In this document: positions 1 to 64,000 of the stretch, piece after piece
Layout: each line of letters begins with the position of its first letter
Position numbering within the stretch: position 1 is the first letter of the stretch
Assembly (NCBI GenBank): GCA_000442125.1
Contig: KE546983.1
Coordinates: forward strand, 377,581 to 441,580
Length of the DNA stretch: 64,000 bases
Direction of reading: 5' to 3'
Origin: Opeltia flavorubescens
Lineage: Eukaryota > Ascomycota > Lecanoromycetes > Teloschistales > Teloschistaceae
Made by a program: the position numbers and the translations under genes
Notes under the pieces: generated by a model
The model's input: only the letters and a program-made list of their open reading frames with translations
The model's database searches: none
Told to the model about the DNA's origin: nothing

Positions 1-3000
1 CTCCTATAATTAAAATAAACGATAATTTAAAATTAAAAAGGTACCTTTAAACTAGCTAAATATCTTTAAATTTAAAAGTTTAACGCTTTTAAAATTAGAG
101 TTAAAGATTAGCGCTTTAATAATATTAATTTATAATACCTACTCTAAGGATAATAAAATTAATAAGACTCGGTTAATAATAATATACCTCGATTAAAATA
201 TTATTAAAAGATGAATTATTAGTAGTATCTTCTATAAATAGAAACGATTAATTTATTAAATTCTTTTAATAATTTTAGAAAGCGAATTAGTAGGTATTAT
301 AGTAAAAAGAAAGTAATTTCTAATTCAGTTTATATTCGCTATAACTATTAATAAATTATAAAGGTAAACTTTAAACTATATCAGCCTAGATCTTCGGATA
401 CCTATTTTTTTATATAAGTAACTATATATAGTTTTATTTTAAGTTACGGATATTATAGGTATATTAATATACTTTATTATAGGTTCTAAAAGGTTTATAA
501 AGAATCTAGTATAGTTAGAAGTATTAATAAAATAGCCGACTTAAATAAAATAATAATTTTTATATTATTATATAAAAATTAAATTAATTTAGAATCGATT
601 AAAAATAAATACTATTATAATAAAAAGATTTTATCTAATACTAATAGTTACTACTAAAGCAGCCTATAATAAATTCTAATTATTACTATTATAGTAGCCC
701 GAAATAAATCCTAATATCTACTATTAAAGTAGCCGAAAATATATTCTATTTATAATTATCGAAGTAGTTTTTAATTTAAAGAAAAAAGATACTATTAAAA
801 TAATCGAAATAATTTTTAATTATTATAGAATATATTTTTTAAAACTCTAATATTATTTATACTCTTTAAAATATATATATCGCCTTTAAAATCTATTCTA
901 AAATCCTTAAAAATATTATTATTAGGATTAGTCGCAGCTATTACTTTTTATAATATTAATTATTACTATATTAACTTTAACTTCTTTTTAAATTCTTCGA
1001 TTATATCCCCCCCTAGATTTATTATATAAAAAGAAGATATTACTAGTAATATAATTAGTAATAGTATAATATAAAAAAATAGTATAAATTATTATTCGAT
1101 TCCCGACCGTTTTATATATTTCTATTATACTTAATACCTGTAATACCTAAATCGTACTTTTTCTTATATTTATTTATATCCGAATCTAACCCTATAAAGG
1201 CTTGCTTTTTAATAAATATTATAATAGACGTAATAAATATTATAACGGGCGTAATATCTTCCGTAGCGAGCGCTACGGTTTATTCCTTCTATTCTTTTTT
1301 CTATTTCGTCTATTTCGCTTTTAAATACTATTTAAGATTCAAATAAACTTTTATAAATCGAATATTTATAGCTGTATTAAAGGCTACTTCGCCCTAATTA
1401 CCTAGATACTATTAAAAATAATAATTAAGGAATAAAAAACGGTTTATATATAAAAGCTATAGGATATATTAAAATCTAAATAATAATAATTTATATAGCT
1501 TCTACTAAAATATCTTTTTAAAATAATATATTCCGTAAATAGCCTATTTCTATATTTATAAGAATTATACGGTCTTATAACAACTATACCTATAATCTAT
1601 AAAAAAACAGCCTCTTAATTTAACTATTTTTTATTTCCTTAGTATTAAAACTTTCCGAATTTTATAGTTTATAATATTAGTAATTAAAAAATATAATTAG
1701 TTTAAATAATTATCTATTATTATATTATACGATTCTATCTATTTATATTATTAACTAGCGCTTATAATAACCAACGTATTAGCTAAATCAAGTAGAAACG
1801 TTCCGCTTCTATTTTATACGGTTCGTAAATAGATTTATTAATTTCTTCTATTTATAATAGATTCGTAAAACTTAGCGATATTATTAATAATTACTACTAT
1901 TATTAATAATAACTTAAATTTAATTCGACTTTAATTTTAATTTACTTAATTTATAATATAAATTGGAGCGCGGGTTACTATAAATACCGTAGTATTATTA
2001 TTCTTAAATATAAAACTCGAACTTAAATTCGAATCCAACTCTTTATTTAAAATCGATATCGTTAATTTTTTATATTTACTACCCGTAACCTCCTTACGCT
2101 TCTTTTATATACTAGTTTCCGTTTAATTACTACCCGTTTTAGGAATAGTTACGCTCGCTTCTATTTTAAAAATAATTATACTCGCTTTTACCTAATTTAG
2201 GCCGGCTTTCTACTATTTTTTACCTAGAAGATACTAAATCTATATTAATAATATTTTAATATTAAAAATATCAGCTTTAAAATTTTTAATATTAATAAAA
2301 GTTATAAATAATATAGTTTATATTAAATTTATCTTTTTTAATATTTCTTAATACCTTTTTTTAATCGATTTAGTAAATTTTAATAAACGCGTATATTTAT
2401 ATATTACCTATTATACGGCTAAATATATATAGTTAATACTTATTTTTATTTTAGCAAATTAATAATAACTATTACCGGTAAATTCGGGTTTTTTAATATA
2501 ACTAGAATTAAATATTATAGTTTCGAGTTATTTTACGATTAAAGAAGTTACTAAATTAGTATTAGTTCTAGATTATAGTTTATCCCTAGGCGAATTATTA
2601 GTTTTTATAGTAGATTAGTAGATACGAATTTAATTATAAAAGTATTAAGAAGTTATTAACGAATCGGTTAGTTACGAAATTATAAAAAAGTAAAAAAAAA
2701 GCCTATCTAGTTAAATAGAAGCTTAAAAGAAAAAAAAAAAAAAAGGAAAAATAGGTTTATTATATAGGAATAATTTCTTGGCTAGTAGACGCTTAAATTA
2801 AACGCTTTAAGCTTTTAGGCGCGTATATTTAAAAATAGCCTGTAATCTTTAAATAATATAGAAGAATTATATCGATTAATTGATTCTATTAATAATATTC
2901 GTAAAAATAATTACTATTTATTTTAATTAATTAAAATATTCGATTTTTTTTTCTATTATTTATTCGATTCGATAAAAATTATAAAAATTTTAATTATTAT

Positions 3001-50208: not shown

Positions 50209-50465
50209 TATTATAGTTAGTAATAATCTAGCTTATTATAATATTATAGAACTATTATATAACTTCGGCTAAAATATTATACCGCTATATTATATTAATA
50301 GAAACGGGGGCCTATATAATTAAAGGAATTCCTTTTAATATTTATAACTTTCTAGATATTAATATATATTTATTCTTTATATATAGCTTTATATATATAA
50401 TAGTAAAATATTAAATTATTATTTATATTTCTATATAAATTTCTTATTATTATATTCTTTTTATA
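50209..50465 (+). repeat. LTR (5') of gypsy family 1 copy C, 257 bp
   Basis: It is the reverse complement of the LTRs at 7240-7496 and 23921-24177, with identical length. It starts tattatagtt and ends ctttttata. Confidence 0.9.
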
Positions 50466-53400
50466 CTTTAATATCTCTATTTTTTATAAAAAGTAGTTCG
50501 ATTATATCACGAAGCTATAATGCGAGGTAATAATAATAATATTATATTTATAACTAGATTATAACTATTAATAAATACGGCTATATAATAAAATAATAGT
50601 ATAAATAAACTTATTAGCGATATTTTAAATATAGAAATTTAAATTTTTAAAATAGAATAAGTTTTAATCTATTAGTAAAGATAGTTAGAAATATTAAAAA
50701 TTAAAAAAAAATTAAGATTTTTAAAGTTATCTACTATTATATATCGATAAGAAATTTTTAAAATCTTAATTAATAATTTTAAATATATTAAAAGATAAAA
50801 AATAAATAAAAAGTTAAAACTAAAATTTTTAATTTTATTCGATATAAAGGTAAAAGCTATATAGAATATATACTATTTCAATATAAATATAAATTTATTT
50901 TTTAAAATTTTTTAATTATATATAAAATAAAAGCTTTAAAAATTCTATTTAGTATAAACTACTTTAATCGCTATCTAGCGAATATATAAAATTAAATTAA
51001 AAAAGCGAATTTAAATATTAGATTTAAAATAATCTAAAAAAAATAATTAAAATTTTTATTAAATTAACTCGATTTTTAAATTATTTATAATATTAAAATA
51101 ATATTATAATATTTTTACGCGAAGTACCGCGATAAATAAAATATTTTTTTATTTAATAAATATTAAAAAAATTTTAAAAATTATATAAAAAAATTTTTAT
51201 TAAATTATATTTAAATAAATATCTTAAAAAACGCCTTTTAAAATAATATAATTAATAAAATATTTAAAATAATTAACTTTTTAAAAATATACTAAAAGAT
51301 TATTAATTAAATAATTAAAATTAAATCGGTTTAATTATAATATCGGGCGCGTATTAAGTATAATAATATAAATATTAAAATATTAAATTTTAAAAGTTAT
51401 AAAAATAGTTAAAAAAAATAAAATCTATTTAATACTATTATACCGGCGATTAATACAAATATAATAATAACTAATTATAGAAATTATAAAGGCTAATATA
51501 ATTTTTAAAAATATAGTTTAAATAATAGCCGCGGATTTTATAAAAATAGTAATATATTAATAATAATTACTTATTAAAAATATAATAAAAAAGATTATAA
51601 AAAACCCGATTATTTTTATAAAAATAAAAAAGGAAAAGATAAAATCTAATAAATATTACTTTTATATTATTAAATTATTAATAAGCGGAATTATAAATAT
51701 TTTATTTACTTATAGATATAACTATTTAAAAAAAAAGATAAAAGGTTAAATTAACTATACTTATTAATTATAGTATAATTTTAAATTTTATATCGTAATA
51801 CTATATAAAGGAGTTAAAATTATATAATAACCGCGATATTAAAATGCTAGTTAAAATATTAAATAATATAAATATAATTTATTTTTAAATATATAAACTT
51901 TCGGTTAATTTTATTAATTTAAAAAAAAATCTAAAATAATAATAAATAAATACGTCGGAGCGAATATTAAATCCTTTAATATTATATTAAGCCTTTTATA
52001 ATTATATTAATATAATTTAAATATTAATTTGGTACGTATATAATAGATATAACGCGATTTTAGTACTATTTTAATAGAAATAAATATTAAACTGATTTTA
52101 ACTAAAAAATTAAAATATTTATTAAAAATAAAAGGATTTAAATAATTATACCTTTTTAATATAAAATTATATAATAAAAATAATATAACCGCTTTATATA
52201 ACGTTAAAAAAATAATTTTACTTAAAAAATATACTAATTTAAAGAAGATTTATAATTTTTAAAAAGCTAATAAATTCTTTAAATATTTTATAAATAATTA
52301 TATTTTTAAAATAATAGGTAATTTATTATTTAAACTTTTATATAATCTTTTAATTATTAAATTAAAGATTTTATAAATTTATATTAATAAAAATCTAATA
52401 AAAGGGTTTATTTATTATTTAATATCGCGAACTAGCGTTTTAATTATATTTATAAAAAAAAACGATAGCCTTCGCTTTTATATTAATTACTAGAGGTTAA
52501 ATCGGGTTATTATTAAAAACCGATATTCTTTTTTCCTAATATTAAAAGCTTTAGATAGGCTATATAAAATAATACTTTTTACCCGCCTAAATATTCGGAA
52601 TACCTACTATTATATTAGAATCCGGAAGGGCGATAAATAAAAAATAGTATTTTATATTTATTATAACTATTTTAAATATTATATTATATTATTTAGCTTA
52701 ATAAATACTCTAACTATTTTTTAAATATATATTAATAATATTTTTAAAAACTTTTTAAACCTTTTTATTATAATATATTACTAGTTTATTTCGAAAATAA
52801 AACTAAGTACTTAATATATATATAAAAGGTTCTCGCGAGGCTATTATAATATAGATTATATATTAAATTAGAAAAGTATTTATTTAATATATATAAAGTT
52901 AGGTTTATATAATTTATTATTCGCTTTAATAATATTATAATAAAAAAGTCCTATATTAAATATATAAGGAATTAGTCCCTTTTAAAATTATATTATAATA
53001 TATAGTATTTCCTTAAATTTATAAATTTTTACTAATATTTTATTAAAGTATTCTAGCGGGTTGTATTATTACTAATATTATTATTAAAAAGCGGTAATAA
53101 GAGATAATTTAATATTAAATTTATTTTATTAAAAAAAATTATTAATATATTAAAAATATTAAAAAAACGCTTTATAATAGTATTAATTTTATAATAATTC
53201 GACTATATACTCTGAATTTATATTAAAATAGACGCTTTAAAATATAATATTTTAATAATTATTTTATAGCCTTTTAATATTAATATATAAATCTATTAAT
53301 ATTTTATCGTTTACTAGTTTTAAAAGAAAATAATAACTAAATATAACTATAATATCGGAAATTTAAAAATACTAGTTATTATTAACGCCTATAAATAGTA

Positions 53401-56400
53401 GCGATATTATATTAAAAAAGCTTTTTATAAAATAGAGGTTATTATTAATTATAAAAATTTTTATAATTTCTTTATAAAAAAAAAGTTTAACTATAAAAAC
53501 ATTAGATAATAAAAACGGCTAGTTAGGCTAAATTTAAATTAAAAATATAAATCGAATAAATTAAACTCTATTAATATAATATTATAAAAAAGTAATTATA
53601 AAGTATTTAAAATTTATACCGCTTTTAATACTTTAAATTAAAAATAGATTTATTTAATTTTATATTTTAAAAAGTTTTAAGAAAATTTTAAAAAAAATAT
53701 AAAACTAATTATAGGTTTTTTAAAGATTTAGCGCTATTTATTTAAAATTTCTATAAGGTAAAATAGAAATAAATTCGAAAATCTATAAAAAACTTTAAAT
53801 AATATTAGAGAATTACTAGAAAATAATAATAAAAGCTATTTTAATAATAAAATATCGTTAATTAATTCTAAAAATATTTAAAAAAGCTTTTAAAAATTAT
53901 TTAAAAATATTAAAACCGCTATTAAAAATATTTAAAAAGCGGTAGTAATATATTATAAAGCGAAAAATATAAAGACTAATATTCTTAATAAAAAAAACAA
54001 ATTTTAAAAAATATTTTTAAATACGGATTTCTATTAAAGGGTCGTATATCTAATATCTATATAAAAAAACGTAATAATATTATATTATTTATATTTTTTT
54101 ATAATTAGAGGATACTTTTAATATTAATAAGAAAAAAAAATAAAAATACTTTAAAAAACGATATAAAAATATTAATTCTATTTTTTATAATTAAAAAAAA
54201 GTCTTTTAAAGTAAAAAAAAAGTAGATATTAATAAAAACTTATAGTTCTAGAATATATAAAAAGCTAAAAGCTTTTTATAAATCTAATATTATTATATAT
54301 AGCGACGCTTAATTAATTTCTTTAAATAATTTTAATAATTTTAAAAATTTATAATCGAAATAATAAATTATTAAAAAAATAGCTTTAAAAAATATATATA
54401 ATATATTTTTATTATTTTTTTATTATATTATAAAATAGTTTTAAAAGTTTAATAATATAATTAAAAANTTAATATTTTAAAAAAAAAATTATTTAATAAT
54501 TTATTAAGCGTTTATATAATATTAAAATAGTTTAATAAAAATTATAAATAGTATTAAAATTAAGAATTATTTTATTATAATAAAAAATAATATTTATTTT
54601 TTAATATAATTAGGTAAAAGGCCTTTAAATATAAGTATAATAATTTTATAATAGATTACTTTAATTATAAAAGAATATTAGAGTTTATTTATTAAAAATA
54701 CTTTTAATTAAATATAATTAAGGATATTAAATACTATATATATATTTATAATATATACTATTAAATATAATCTATAAGGTATAAATTATATAGTAAAATA
54801 TAACTATTAAAAAAACCTTTAAAATCGTTTAGTAATTTAATTATAGATTTTATTATTAACCTATTTTTATATAAACGCTTCCGCGTTATATATAATTTAA
54901 TTTTTATAGTAGTTAATTATTATATAAAGCTTACTATATATATTTTTTTAAAATAATTATAAATATAAAAAAACTAGCGGATACCTTTATTAATAAAATA
55001 TATAACTATTATAATATATTTAAATTATTAGTTTCTAATTAAAGGACTTTTTTTATTTTATAATTTTAGTTTATTTTTTATTATTATTTAAAAATTAAAC
55101 GCTATTTAAAAACCGCTTTTTATTTATAAATCGATAGGTAAATTAAATAATAAATTTAAACCTTAAAATAATTCCTAAAATATTTTATTAATTATAATTA
55201 GAATAATTAAAATAAATAATTATTTTTTCCGGAATTTATATATAATAATAGTAAATATACTTCTACTAGTATAATATCGTTCTTCGCCGCTACTAGTAAA
55301 TATTTTAATCTAGAAAATAATATTTAAGTTAATAATATTAAAAATAATATATTTAAAGCGCGTAAATATATTAAAAAATATATATATATATATATATTTA
55401 ATTTAAAAATTAATAAAAAGTAGTAATAAAAAAATAATTTAAATATTATAACTAAAAATATTTTATAAAATTTTTTACTATTAGTAATATAGTATAATTA
55501 AATAAACGTAATATTAAAATAAAAAAGTTATTAAAAAAACTAGATTATAAATTCTATAAACTTTTTAAAATAATAAAACTAGTAAATTTATAATTATACC
55601 GTCTAGAATTTTTAATATTAATAAATTATATTTATTTTATTTTTTATATTTCTCTTCTCGAACTATATATAATAGTAAAAAAAAATAAAAAAAATCTATT
55701 ACTTTTATTTATTAATAATAAAAAGTAATATAAAATAAAAAAAATATTTAATTTAAAATAATATTATCGAAAATTATAATATTTAATAAAATCGTTTAAT
55801 TATAATTTTAAAAATAATAGCTAGTTTAATATTAAAAAAATATCGGGAGCTAGTAAATATATAGAGGACTTCTATTATATATATTTTAAAAAATTACTAA
55901 ATAATAATAAAAAAAACTTTTTAAAAAAAAGATAAAAAAAAAATAAACTATAATTAAATTATATATAAACGTATAAGTAAAATAATAAATAAAATTATAA
56001 ATAATATTAAAAATATAAAATAATAATAAAAATAAAATTTTATATAATTATTAAAGTTTAATAATAGAATATATATTAAAAAATATATATTATAAAATAT
56101 TTTATTAAAAAAGATTATAATTAAAAAAAGATTTTATTAAAATATAAACTTTAAAATTATAATTATTTAAAAGCGATATAAGCTTAAAAATCGAATATAG
56201 AAATAAATATTAAAGATAAATATAAAATATTAAATAAATATAAAATTATATAATAATATTACCTTTTTTTACCTCGCTTTTATTAATAAAAAAAAGATTA
56301 TTATTTTTAGCTAAATTTAATTATTTTTCTTTAATAATTAAAGGATTTAAATAATTTTAATATAAAATTAACGCGCGAAATAATATAATAAAGATAAATA

Positions 56401-57263
56401 TATAATAAAGTATATTATATTAATACTTATATTAATCGATTTCTTTAAAATATAAATAATGTTAATAATATTAAAGGTATTAATAATCTTTTTTTACTAT
56501 ATTTTAGCTTTTTTTTAAATTTTAATTCGTTTATAATTAAAGAAAATAATAACGCGTGAGTAGTATATAATAAATCGCTTTTTATTTTTATTAGTAATAT
56601 TAGTAGTAATAATAATAAAAATTATTTTATTAACTATTAAAATAAATCTTTAAAAGATTTATACGGGTTAAAAAAACTATTATAATATATAAATTTAATA
56701 TATTAGTTTATATTTTTTATAAAATTTAAAATAATACGTGTAATATTTAAAATTAATACTAGCCTTTATATAATAAATAAGAATATAATAGATAATAAAA
56801 TTATTTTTTATTTATTTTTTATTAAAGGTTATTAAATAATAGTACTAAATAAATAATATATATTATAATACTAGCTTTAATATATTAATAGTAGTAATTC
56901 TTTTATAAAATTAAAGTATTTAATAATATTAGAATATCGGGCGCTTATATATTCTAAAAAGTTTTTTTAATTATAAAAGTTTTAAGAACTTTAGAATCTA
57001 TAATAAAAAATATAAAAGCTAAAAAAAATTTATAAAAAAATAAAGCTAGTAAATAAAAGTAAAATATAGTAAAAATAATAAAAACCTAAATTAGGAAATA
57101 AATCTATACTAGAAGAGAAATATTTATTATATATCTATAAATAAAAAATAAAATTACACTATTTAATATAAAATTTATAACGTTAGTAATATAAATTAAA
57201 CTATTTAAAATTTAATAATTTTAATTATTTATAATTATTATAATATAGTATATTTATTAAATA
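50209..57263 (+). mobile_element. Ty3/gypsy chromovirus fossil, family 1 copy C, 3' end missing
   Basis: It is an inverted copy of 17100-24177. Plus-strand parts are: 5' LTR (50209-50465), gag about 50700-51450, nucleocapsid-type stretch about 51490-51640, protease about 51700-52050, and reverse transcriptase about 52380-52830 (DYRGLN-type block near 52490, WKT block near 52640, Y.DD box near 52780). RNase H follows about 53130-53500, then integrase about 54550-55300 (the DFI block near 54845), the FHVSLL-type block near 55640 and a chromodomain about 55730-55920. It inserted into the family-2 fragment and is cut at 57263 by a Helitron. Its last part and 3' LTR should lie beyond the window. 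It is broken throughout by RIP. Confidence 0.88.
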
Positions 57264-57290
57264 CTAGTATATTCGCCGCCTTCGGCGGCG
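57264..57290 (-). other. Helitron 3' terminus: hairpin plus CTAG
   Basis: Read on the minus strand, cgccgccgaaggcggcg (57290-57274) folds as a 7-bp stem with a 3-base loop. It is followed by aatata and CTAG (57267-57264), and then by a T of the interrupted gypsy element. The hairpin position and CTRR end are standard for Helitrons. The stem has no CA dinucleotide, so RIP could not erode it. Confidence 0.8.
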
Positions 57291-57746
57291 GTTGAACGTT
57301 TATATTCGAAAGTTAATATACGATTATCTAAGTTTAGAATAAATTATAGTATATTTTTATATTAATACTATATATAAATATTCTACTATTATTCTAAAGA
57401 AAAAATTCAAGTTTAGGTTAATTCAGTCCGGGAGAAAAATTTTAAACCGCTCGTTATCTAAACTCTTTATTTAGAATTATTCGTTCTAATAATAAAATAT
57501 TTAAGAATCTATTTTTAACTTACTACTATTCGTATTATTATTTTCGAGAATTTTATTATTTAATTTATTTAACTATTTCTAGACGTTTTTAACGCTATTT
57601 CCTATTATAACTCCTAGATTCTTTAGTTTAGTATTTAGTTCTAATATATATTCTATTATATAAATAAATTAATATTAAATATTTTTTTCTTCTAGTTCGA
57701 CTATAATTAATTCCGGTAAATAATTATAGATTTTTTAAACGGGGCG

Positions 57747-57854
57747 AATATAGGGTTAAATATTTTCGATATAAATATAGGTCTAAAGCTTTTAAATATA
57801 AATATAGGTATAAAGTTTTTAAATATAAGTACGCGGCTAAATTTTTTAGATTTC
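57747..57854. repeat. 27-bp tandem repeat, two clear and two degenerate units
   Basis: Units start near 57747, 57774, 57801 and 57828. The middle two differ at two positions. The unit length of nine codons would keep a reading frame open, so it may mark a former coding repeat. Confidence 0.6.
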
Positions 57855-59699
57855 CTATATAAAGGCGTTCGAAAAACTTTTCGGCATTTTTATATCTTTT
57901 TTTAAAATAAAGATAGATAAAAGTAAATAAGATAGTATACGCTTTATATTAAATATAGGAGCCGAAGTTTAAATAGCTAGAACTGGGTTAATAATTAATA
58001 CGGGTATTATTATTTATTATTAGCGCGGTAGCCCGAGACGCTATTTAAAATTAATAAGTTTATTTTTATTATTTTTTACTATTATATAAATAAATTAATA
58101 TAAATAATAAAATTTAAATTTTATATAAATACTAATATAAACGTTTTATAATATTTTTAAACGCTAAAGCTTTCTTTATTATTTTAATTATTAAATTAGT
58201 TAGAATATTTATAAATATAAAGTATAACTTTATATTTACTAAAGTCTATAATATAAACTTATTTTTTATATATATAATTAAAGTAATATTTATTATTAAA
58301 TAGATTTTACTTATAATATCTTTTAAAGTAGCTAAAATTCGTACTTTTATAAAAACGGTATATATCGATACTGTTTTAATTATCGCCGAATATATAAATA
58401 ATTAACCTATACTATTATCTATTATAGGTCTAGACCTATTTATAATTAGTTTATATTATTTATTTATATAAAGGAAGCCTATATAAATAGATTTTTATCT
58501 CTAAACTTTAAAACGATATTTTAACCGTCGAGCTAGTACTTTTAAATAATATAATAGAATTTATATAAAAAAATATATAAGCGGATTACTTTATTATAGA
58601 TAAGTTTTTTAAAATTTCGAATAATAATATTTTTCTTTATACTATTATTCCAGCGTTTATTACTAAATAAATTATATTCAAATCTAGCTATTTTAAAATA
58701 TTTAATAATTAATCCTAGTACTAGATTATTATAATAATATACGTTAGGATTTAAACTATAATTAATTAAATATCCGGGTTAAATATATAAAAATACTAAA
58801 AATAATTATATATAAATAATATAAAAGTATATAGAATTACGCGAAAAAATAATAAGCGAATTATTTTAAAAATTTTAAATATTTTAGGCGTTCGAAACGT
58901 TTTAAGCGTTCTCTAATTTAAAATTAATATAGATTAGAGGTTATTTAAGAAATTTAGAGAAGTTTTTATTAAATATAAAAGCTATTTTAATAATTGGACG
59001 AATTATATAAAATAAAGTAGATAATACTACCTATTTATATTAAAAATTAAAAATAATTACCGAAAGATATATATAGATATTTTTTATATAGAATTCGATT
59101 ATTTTTATCTTTTTAAATCTATAATAATTACGTTTAATTATTTAATAGAATATTATTTATTAATATTTAATATATCCGAATTATCTATATTAAAGTCTTT
59201 ATAAAATAAATAATAAACGAATATATATATATTATAAAAAGAATATATTGAAATACGTATTAAAATAAAAGTATATTATTAAAAATAAAATAAAAAATTA
59301 GAATTTAAATTATAATCTATATATTAACTATAATACAAAATAGCTAATTAAGTAGAAATAGAAAGTTTAAAGGTTTTTAGTATATTATATAATTAAAAGT
59401 TTATTAAATATAAAACTTTATATTATATATTTATATATATTAAATATATAAATTTTATATAAACGATTAAACGCGTATAAATATAAAAATATCCTTAAAT
59501 AGTTATTATATTTAAATAAACGTATATTAGTTTTTTTAATTTAAATATTATATAAATATTTAAATTTTATAAACGAAATATAAAAATAGAAAACTTTGAT
59601 ATATTCTATATATAGTATTTTAATATAGTAAAAAATATTTTAAAAATAAAAATTAAATATAAAAATTAATATAAAATAATATAGAATAAAAAAAATAAA

Positions 59700-59791
59700 A
59701 TTTATAAAATTTATAAAAAAAAGTTATAAAATTTATAAAATCTATAAAATAGAGTTATAAAATCTATAAAATCTATAAAAATTAGAAATTA
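59700..59791. repeat. Short tandem repeat of tataaaatc-type words
   Basis: Repeated ttataaaat and ctataaaat words of 9-10 bases fill the interval. It lies just downstream of the helicase end. Confidence 0.6.
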
Positions 59792-60059
59792 GATTTATTA
59801 AATAATATATACTATTTAAAAGAAAATTTAAAAGATAAAAATTATTAATATAATAAATACGGTTCGATTAATTCGCTAGCGTATTTTTTTATATAAGTTA
59901 AAAAAAAGCGCGCGTTTTTTAATTTTAGTATATTTTTATTTTTAAATAGTATAAAAACCCGATTATAGCGGTTTAAAAATAAAAACCGAATATTATTATA
60001 TAATATAAACTCTATAGAATAATAAAAGATAAAAATATACTATAATAGTAGAACTTTTA

Positions 60060-61300
60060 GATATTATATATTATTTATTTTACCGTTTTATTTTAAATAT
60101 TATAATATTATAAAGTTATTTATATTTATAACCCTCGAAAATCTAATATATAATTATTTATAATTAAAATATAAATAATAAAAATCGAGTTTAATATTTA
60201 TTAAAAACTACTTTTAATTTTTATTAATTATTATTATAAAAGCTATATAAATTAGAAATTACTTTTAAATAATTATTTAAAGTAGTTCGCTTTTATTATT
60301 AAATAAATAAATCTAGAAAAAACCGTATATTTATTTTTTAAAAGGACCTATAATAATATATATTTAAATAATAAATCGGGATAGTTTTATAATAATTAAG
60401 CGAGTTTTATTATATATTTCCTTATTCGGGTATAAATTATATATAAGTATAACTAGCGTGTTAACTTTTAGTTTAAACGTTATAGGTAATAAAAATAAGG
60501 GGTTTAAACTTATAAGAATTTCTAGAAATAATATATTTATTATATTTTCGCTTTTATTTTCGATCTTATTAATAATTAAAAAGCTATATAAATCCTTAAA
60601 TATATAATTTAAAACTTTAATATTAATTTTTTAAATATTATTATTATATAGGGCTAGTATTATTTATAAAGTAATAAAATTATTTAAATATAGTCTAATT
60701 AGTAAACAATATTTAAAGTAGATATAATTAATTAAATTTAATAATTTAATAATCCGATTATATATTAAATTAAATATTTCTATTATATTATTTAATAAAC
60801 GATTAAATAATATTACTATTAATTATTAAACCTATTTTATATTTATTAATTTAATATCGATATATATATTTTTAGTAAAATAAAAAATCTTTAATTTAAA
60901 TTAGAATATAGATTTATAGATATATATACTAATAATATTCTATATAAAACCGTTCTAAATAATAGGTAAATACTACGTTTAATTACTATTAAATAAAATA
61001 AAAATCTTTTTAAACGCTATTTTATTATTATAAATATCCAAAAAAATTCGATTTATAGCTTTTATAATATATTAATATTATATAATAGCTTTATTCTAGA
61101 TAATAAATTATATATAGTAAAATAATTCTATTAGTTTACCCTATTTTAAAATACTATAAGTACTAGTTTTATAGTAGGGTATAAAGATTTTAAAGTATAA
61201 ATAGGCCGTTTAATCGTTAGAAAATAAAAGAGACGTAATATTAGAAAATATTATATATAAAACGATTTTTCTTTAGAACCGAAACTTATATATAAGTATC
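60060..61300 (-). pseudogene. Pif1-type helicase domain of the Helitron, degenerate
   Basis: On the minus strand successive blocks of the Helitron helicase are readable. They include a FKIFIPYYKTSTYSILK block (61195-61145, typical FKIPIP..ETSTC), a LIIWDEA-type Walker B region near 61112-61085, and a LTKNMRL-type block near 60881-60853. The C-terminal blocks LKVNTLVIL (about 60475-60447) and YNKTRLIIIKLSR (about 60413-60375) match LKVGAPVIL and CNGTRL. Roughly 66 codons around these last blocks are open. The enzyme would unwind DNA during rolling-circle transposition. In-frame TAA/TAG stops elsewhere show it is inactive. Confidence 0.78.
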
Positions 61301-64000
61301 TAGTATAAAAAGATTTTTTCTATTCCTCCCGAGCCGTTTAAAAAAAAGGAAAATAGTTAAATATTATTTTTAATAGCTATAATAATAGTATTATAAGCTA
61401 TTCGTTATCCGCGATTTATTTACGTTAATTAGATAATTAGGATAGTAGCTTTTATAACCGTATTATAATCTAGTTCTATTATAACCCGGGTGTTTATAAA
61501 TCGCTGTTTCTAGTTTAATACCGGTTTAGAAAGGTTATAATTAGAAAAATTTTTAATTATATAACTATAGTTTAGTTATAATTAAATATAGGCTATAATT
61601 AAATTCGGGATATTCTATATTTATAAATAGATTTTATAGTTTTTAACGAATTTAATACGAAAAATTATCGTATAAATTTATATTAAATTGATTTTAAAGC
61701 GCTTATAGATTATTAATTATATTTTATTAAAGGGCTTTAATAAATATATTATAAATTATTCGATCTAATCGCTATAAAGTAGCTTTAGTAAAGTATAATA
61801 TCTATTTTTAATTATTATCCGGTAGTTTAAGCGTATAATAGGTATTTTTAAATATTAAATATTTATATTTATTTATAGTTTAAAAGTTCTAGAATAAAAT
61901 TAACCTAAAAACTATTTATAATATTTCTATAAAGTAATAATATTCGCTATATTCTAATTATAAGAATATTATTTTTTTAATATTTATTTTTTATTCGCGA
62001 GTTTTTTAATATTAAAGCTGCTTTTAAATTTAAATAAAATACTATAAAAAGTTTTTATAAAAGTACTACTTTAAATTTTTATATTTAGTATTATATCTAA
62101 AAAATATAGTTAATTTAGATATTAATATTTCTAGTACTTTTTTTAAACCGACTTCATCTATATTATCCGCGAAAAATACCGGCTATTAATTTTTAAGGTA
62201 GATTTCTAATTATTCGACTATTAACTATTTTTTAAAAATATAAAATTTATTAAATTAGTACGCGGTTTATATCGAGCTAATATAGCGGCCGTTTAGATAT
62301 TATATAATTTTATTTTAATTTATCCCGGTTTATATAACTAGGATTATTTAATCTTTTCTTTTATATATATATTTATAAATATATTTAATTATAAATACGC
62401 CTTTATTAAATTTAATATTAATATAATAGTTATATTTAAATAATAGATATAAATTATATAAAACGATTTACTAATTTATTATTATAATTATTTTTTTATT
62501 ATAAATTTGTTTTACGCTTCGACTGTTTTTATATTAGCGGTACCGTAGGTATAAATTTTTATCTATTATTATTTAAAGCTAAAAGGTCTTCGGGAAATTT
62601 TTTAAATAAATATTTTTTTTATATTTATTTTTAGTTATATATAATAATTTAAAATTAATAGAATTACTATAAAGCTTATATAATATTATATTTTTTATAA
62701 TTTTCTATAATTTATTTAAAAGGTTAATTATAAAATTAGGAAATTTCGTATAAATAATTTTATTAATTAAAACTAGGTTTAAATAGCGAGCTTATTTATT
62801 AAAAATTAAAAGAATATAGTAATATAGAAGATCTCGTTTTTAGTATTCGATTATTTAATATAGATTTTTATATATTTTAAACGCCTTTTATAAATTTTAA
62901 AATAGAGTTTTTCGTTTTAAATTAAAGATTTATATTATAATAGTTAGTATATTAATTATATTGATATTTAAGAAAAGTATAATTAATAGATTAAACTATT
63001 TTAAATTTGTTGTTATTATTATAAATAGGGTTAAAAAATTTTATACTTGGGTAATTATTATAGAATTTTAAAATAATTTATATATAAACCGATCGCTATT
63101 AATAAATAATATTAATAGGATTATTTTTTATTAAATACTCGCGCGTTTATATTCCTTTAATATATTATATTTTATAAACTATTATATAGCTTTATATAAA
63201 TTATATATTAATAGTATACTACTTAATTAAAACGCGCTTTTTTAATAATTATATAGGAATCTATAATAAACCGTTAAATAAATTTATATAAACGCTAGAT
63301 AATATTAAATTAGTTTTTTTATTTAAATTTATAATATTTATACTTTATTTATTACGTAAGTTTAATCCGGTTATTCTTTTTTATTTCTCCTAAAATTAAT
63401 TCGAATAAAAAATCCTATCTAGAATTCTAATATAAAAAAAAAAGGGGTATTAAAAAGGTATATATTTAGGATATATTAGCTAAATTCTATAGAAGTTATA
63501 GTTTTATTTATTTTTATTTTTTTAAAAAAGTATAATATCGCGCGCTATTATATCCGGATCGTCCGGGATTATTATAACTATTTTATTCGATATAAATATA
63601 TTATTCCGCTTTTAATCGGCCGTTTTAATTATAATTAGCTATATATAAAGATTAAAGATAAAATAAACCGGGTTTATTAAAATTTAATTAAGGATTTTTT
63701 TAACCGTATAATAGAATTTAATAAAAGGATTTCTATAATATTTAAATATTTTTATTAAGCTTTAAAGAATCGGTTTCTATAGAAGCTCTATATTCTCTAT
63801 ATAATTTTTTTTATAGCTTAGAAACCTAGAACTACTAGCCGTTTAAAGGTCGTATAGGTATATTTATATAAAGGTAGGCGGGTTTATATACTATAGTAGC
63901 TTATAAAAATAATAAAATTTACCGCGAATTATATATAATTATAATCTAGTATTATTAAATAGATTAAATTAAGTACTAATATAGAATATAAATACTATTA
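61301..64000 (-). other. Upstream part of the Helitron open reading frame, unresolved
   Basis: This should hold the helicase N-terminus (Walker A) and the region between Rep and helicase. Protein-like runs exist on the minus strand, for example around 61380-61510, with Tyr-, Lys- and Arg-rich blocks. I could not place the Rep HUH motif or the Walker A loop with certainty. The plus strand also gives long protein-like runs at about 61700-63200, so the coding strand here rests on the helicase downstream, not on motifs seen. Confidence 0.4.

Follow-up and report, generated by a model that had tools for sequence, protein, structure and literature searches.

The right end of the window (the whole 64,000-nucleotide stretch analysed here, C19:377581-441580) is occupied by the larger part of a Helitron, a rolling-circle transposon, lying on the minus strand inside a long terminal repeat (LTR) retrotransposon. 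The whole Helitron is C19:434844-442915, 8,072 bp, equivalent to window 57264 to 65335. Its 3' five-sixths are inside the window and its 5' end, at window-equivalent 65335, falls 1,335 bp outside. A first-pass annotation of this DNA had given the interval as 57264-61300, of which the 3' boundary holds and the extent does not. The features are as follows, in window positions unless a contig is named.

50211-57263, plus strand: left part of the host LTR retrotransposon, a one-piece match to an uninterrupted copy on C3
about 50209-50465: left LTR of the host, a 257-bp repeat that recurs in the right LTR
C19:443251-443507, outside the window: right LTR of the host
57264-64000, minus strand: in-window part of the Helitron, delimited by ends common to its relatives and by empty sites in host paralogues
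57264-57267, minus strand: CTAG at the 3' terminus (CTRR motif), with T next at 57263
57274-57290, minus strand: 3' subterminal hairpin, folding as a 7-bp stem with a GAA loop, 6 nt before CTAG; also in the C8 copy
57480-58079, minus strand: relic of a second gene, last exon; aligned over 199 aa with C8:1047460-1048062 at 44% identity, 19 stops
58467-59039, minus strand: second exon of that gene, also a relic, 42% identity to C8:1046512-1047075 with 12 stops
60046-61554, minus strand: RepHel relic, Pif1-type helicase half, from alignment to the C8 relative, with a PIF1 profile match at 60862-61416
61309-61335, minus strand: Walker A, GSGGIEKIF against GPGGTGKTF in C8
61556-64000, minus strand: RepHel relic, N-terminal and Rep part, from alignment to C8, which runs on to window-equivalent 64187
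62360-62386, minus strand: two-tyrosine motif, kept
62807-62833, minus strand: HUH motif, HCH changed to YYY
about 62807-63345, minus strand: equivalent of Helitron_like_N (Rep), from alignment to C8

Read on the minus strand, the 3' end consists of the hairpin CGCCGCC-GAA-GGCGGCG (57290-57274), AATATA, CTAG (57267-57264) and a T (57263). With up to 3 mismatches allowed, the 31-mer at this end is found a single time in the window, and in 0/100 shuffles. We searched the genome (34.4 Mb in 23 contigs) with window 57200-57700 and obtained 27 matches, sixteen of which start exactly at query base 438, the T at window 57263. The remaining eleven comprise six Helitron copies, three matches starting at 449, and two at 435 or 436. 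Because 16/27 matches start exactly at this T, the edge of the dispersed host repeat is the end of CTAG, and the earlier claim that hairpin, six bases, CTAG and T stand exactly where the host similarity stops is borne out. The 5' TC end, TCTACTAATAATTAC at C19:442915, is common to the copies on C8, C15, C20 and others. It had been predicted to the right of the window, preceded by A; the TC is there, and the preceding base is T here and C or T in the empty sites.

Window 50211-57263 aligns in a single match with the uninterrupted C3 copy (C3:912620-905533), at 85.5 per cent over 7,089 columns, so the host is one LTR element. It picks up directly beyond the 5' TC end, at C19:442916-443507 (592 bp, LTR included), in line with the roughly 0.6 kb plus LTR that the annotation had expected there. 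Its call of a gypsy element stands as far as an LTR retrotransposon; gypsy itself is compatible with a marginal RVT_1 (reverse transcriptase) match in the uninterrupted C3 paralogue (29.2 bits against a cut-off of 29.6).

Inter-contig blastn at low stringency drowned in AT-rich noise, and stricter scoring was adopted. We read the empty site in six paralogues out of the 27-match search (C16, C6, C11, C2, C3, and C19:369-372 kb). In all six the left part of the host (to C19:434843) joins C19:442916-442920. The filled site is AATAGTTT [TCTACTAATAATT ... CTAG] TATTTAATA; the empty sites on C16 and C6 are AATAGCTC joined to TATTTAATA, with C/T and G/A differences elsewhere. Comparing filled and empty sites, no target bases were duplicated and none were lost, and there is no target-site duplication. 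The junctions are known from the assembly alone, which would be compatible with a rearrangement breakpoint or an assembly join and no insertion at all. Yet 6/6 paralogues read are colinear with the host on both sides of the segment and the breakpoint is a Helitron terminus to the base, and we regard this explanation as extremely improbable.

A nest on C3 (C3:901251-913222) involves the same two families. There a Helitron copy (3' end C3:903245) adjoins the same retrotransposon family as the window host, and another copy of that family (C3:904940-912620) sits inside the C3 Helitron. Since the C3 nesting occurs in both orders, the two families were active in overlapping periods.

The PIF1 profile matches the window copy with E 5.7e-16 at C19:438442-438996 on the minus strand, and the helicase block in the alignment with the C8 relative lies 2.8-4.3 kb from the Helitron 3' end. 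This agrees with the helicase noted in the first pass at about 2.8-4 kb inward on the same strand. The Rep part expected upstream of it is also on that strand, as a domain seen solely through the C8 relative. The profile search suggested for the two domains was successful for the helicase and not for Rep: a genome search with the Rep profile PF14214 reported four places, and the window copy is absent from them. Against the C8 protein, the relic covers residues 288-1668 in four blocks that are gap-free internally, and the DNA alignment contains 3 single-base indels. In the HUH region GLPHCHILL of C8 has become DLLYYYILL, with both HUH histidines gone, and at the two-tyrosine motif KYIHKYVYK has become KYIYKYIYK, with the tyrosines kept.

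The genome contains 22 PIF1 matches, some of them probably cellular, and one could imagine a chance hairpin lying beside an unrelated captured or cellular Pif1 helicase. This account is refuted by the empty sites and full-length relatives, and we give it practically no weight: the same two ends flank the same protein in other copies, and the host paralogues are without exactly this segment. Both ends, empty sites and RepHel relic agree on the Helitron type, orientation and nesting originally proposed. The first pass had named two outcomes that would overturn it, a missing upstream Rep domain and a gypsy copy that fails to resume, and neither is the case.

The C8 relative (C8:1040036-1048263) is 8,228 bp with 48.5 per cent GC, compared to 16.9 per cent in the window copy. 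A 645-base run of N falls in the N-terminal coding part of its RepHel, so the frame is verified as open for the last 1,383 codons only. Both domains score above cut-off in this one protein, PF14214 (Helitron_like_N) with 171 bits and PF05970 (PIF1) with 212 bits. The C8 copy is set in flanks of about 4-13 per cent GC, and it either escaped repeat-induced point mutation (RIP) or came after it.

Over 7,570 columns, the window copy differs from C8 by 2,422 C>T or G>A changes, 40 T>C or A>G changes, and 72 transversions. C>T/G>A changes thus account for 2,422/2,534 differences. CpA sites are changed in 875/911 cases, followed by CpG (715/1,144), CpT (440/792), and CpC (388/817). The non-RIP (transversion) distance to C8 is about 1 per cent; from the C15 copy, the window copy differs by 26 transversions in 8,070 columns. 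With 109 of the 1,381 RepHel codons compared turned to stops and both HUH histidines lost, the window copy is dead.

Canonical Helitron ends have been described as TC, a hairpin, and CTRR, without inverted repeats (PMC4289320). The same account describes HELPO1 and HELPO2 of Pleurotus ostreatus with a CT[A/T]G 3' end, a subterminal hairpin, insertion at AT, and RepHel. The present element is like them in 3' end, hairpin, and RepHel, though their host is a basidiomycete. Helraiser, a canonical animal Helitron transposase (PDB 7lcc), arranges its HUH Rep and Pif1-type helicase in the same order, and the C8 RepHel matches it with a phmmer E of 2.3e-240 over query 1-1360. Unlike Helraiser, the fungal element has a second gene, and its window copy is RIP-destroyed. 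The likely assignment to the canonical (Helitron1-type) class draws on the ends and on RepHel, for which Helraiser is the only reference protein compared.

Most Helitrons of Pezizomycotina are reported to group with Helitron2 (PMC5148889), which would make this a non-canonical element like FoHeli of Fusarium oxysporum, a type with a hairpin at each end and asymmetric inverted repeats. FoHeli elements are likewise autonomous ascomycete Helitrons with RepHel, and their ends are described in that report as Helitron2-like, TCAG...ATTTT or TGCCT...CTCCTGT with asymmetric inverted repeats. The present element has TC, a hairpin and CTAG instead. In neither the C8 nor the window copy do the outermost 80 bases of the two ends share an inverted match of at least 8 bases, and the 5' 80 bases have weak 3-5-bp stems only, the strong hairpin being near the 3' end. 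The target of the window copy also departs from A-T: T stands before the 5' end (the empty sites have [C/T]) and T after the 3' end. Among ten copies read, however, A precedes the 5' end in eight (C8, C15, C20, C3, C4, C12, C18, and C19:670412) and T in two, the window copy and C4:1730986. T follows the 3' end in 8/10; of the other two, C12 has G, at a telomere, and C4:1730986 has a 3' end that is unplaceable to the base. Since the element has neither asymmetric inverted repeats nor a hairpin at each end, we set Helitron2 membership aside and consider that class very unlikely. Canonical ends in ascomycetes are not new, because Helitron families 98 and 765 of Mycosphaerella graminicola are reported from a RIP genome with CTRR and a hairpin at the 3' end (PMC4522978). 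Likened by that description, they share the 3' hairpin, CTRR and RIP with the present element and differ in a 5' TA.

Downstream of RepHel, the C8 copy carries a second gene (C8:1046363-1048065), with a predicted 4-exon model of 483 aa built on splice-like sites and a weak DUF3716 score. The gene is probably spliced. One piece (L018:1151-1420, where L018:364-2066 is C8:1046363-1048065) is open too, out of frame with this model, and may be an alternative reading of the exon. A genome search with each of the two exons that have relics in the window hit one and the same set of six Helitron copies, those that have the 3' end, and at its sensitivity nothing outside them. That the gene is in all six points to a resident component of the Helitron and not to a one-off capture. 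HELPO1 copies are described as bearing extra genes downstream of RepHel (PMC4289320). The likeness to HELPO1 is one of position, and here the gene is at the same place in all six copies keeping the 3' end.

The Cys-rich stretch of the second gene scores 20.9 bits with DUF3716 (E 0.00035), under the curated cut-off of 22, and 22.3 bits with UPAR_LY6_2, above the DUF3716 score and further below its own cut-off of 31.5. A PDB search with this stretch gave a best E of 0.066 and no significant match, and DUF3716 is not mentioned in the literature searched. A genome search with DUF3716 found two loci, on C17 and C3, and did not report the Helitron gene. Capture from either locus is unsupported (best tblastn E 0.87).

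Smaller relatives are also present. The C8 copy's opening 264 bases have thirty matches in the genome, of which seven run at least 240 bases and twenty-three end within the first 95. A 356-bp non-autonomous relative with the 5' end in common has thirty-eight matches, twelve reaching both ends. One complete copy (C12:453-98, minus strand) ends ...TTACCTAG and is followed directly by GGTTAGGG repeats, the (TTAGGG)n telomere, to the contig end; on C4 the same element end is followed by TATAAATT. The C12 join is ambiguous by 3 bases because TAG is common to both sides. It is the sole case, as a 32-letter pattern with up to 3 mismatches found no other Helitron-telomere junction. Either the telomere was added onto the Helitron end or the element inserted beside a telomere. 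It is tempting, and in our view unlikely, to suppose both that the second gene encodes a RepHel partner (a Cys-rich DNA- or protein-binding cofactor with a role like that of the RPA genes of plant Helitrons) and that the exact CTAG terminus of a small family member can prime telomere addition, giving the chromosome end on C12.

Two other Helitron sequences were seen on C19. A 2.1-kb non-autonomous element (C19:670412-672518), mostly AT-rich filler and an N run, begins with TCTACT after an A and ends in GTGTACTAG before a T. Window 77-469 (plus strand), leftward into C19:374112-377540, is a C-terminal RepHel remnant from another and more distant Helitron.

We put at about 96 per cent the probability that the right end of the window holds an autonomous-type Helitron with canonical ends, inserted into an LTR retrotransposon and later hit by RIP. 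It entered its host from 5' TC to 3' CTAG, with target bases neither duplicated nor deleted. Following the established Helitron model, a formerly active RepHel would have nicked the donor strand, the Pif1-type helicase would have unwound it, and RepHel would have halted at the 3' hairpin and CTAG, with the ends joined into the target. RIP afterwards struck both Helitron and host, removing both HUH histidines and placing stops throughout.

Helitrons nested in retrotransposons are of a known kind, and the window element is a new, well-documented example. It documents a canonical Helitron to the exact base in a genome that is heavily mutated by RIP and looks like that of a filamentous ascomycete, a group for which mostly non-canonical Helitrons are reported (PMC5148889). 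A single genome shows the element's two ends, its landing site in the empty state and a relative that is well preserved. Because the C8 relative looks unmutated and is so close in transversions, the loss of each functional motif to RIP is directly readable. Two further leads, independent of this, are the second gene and the small copy fused to a telomere.
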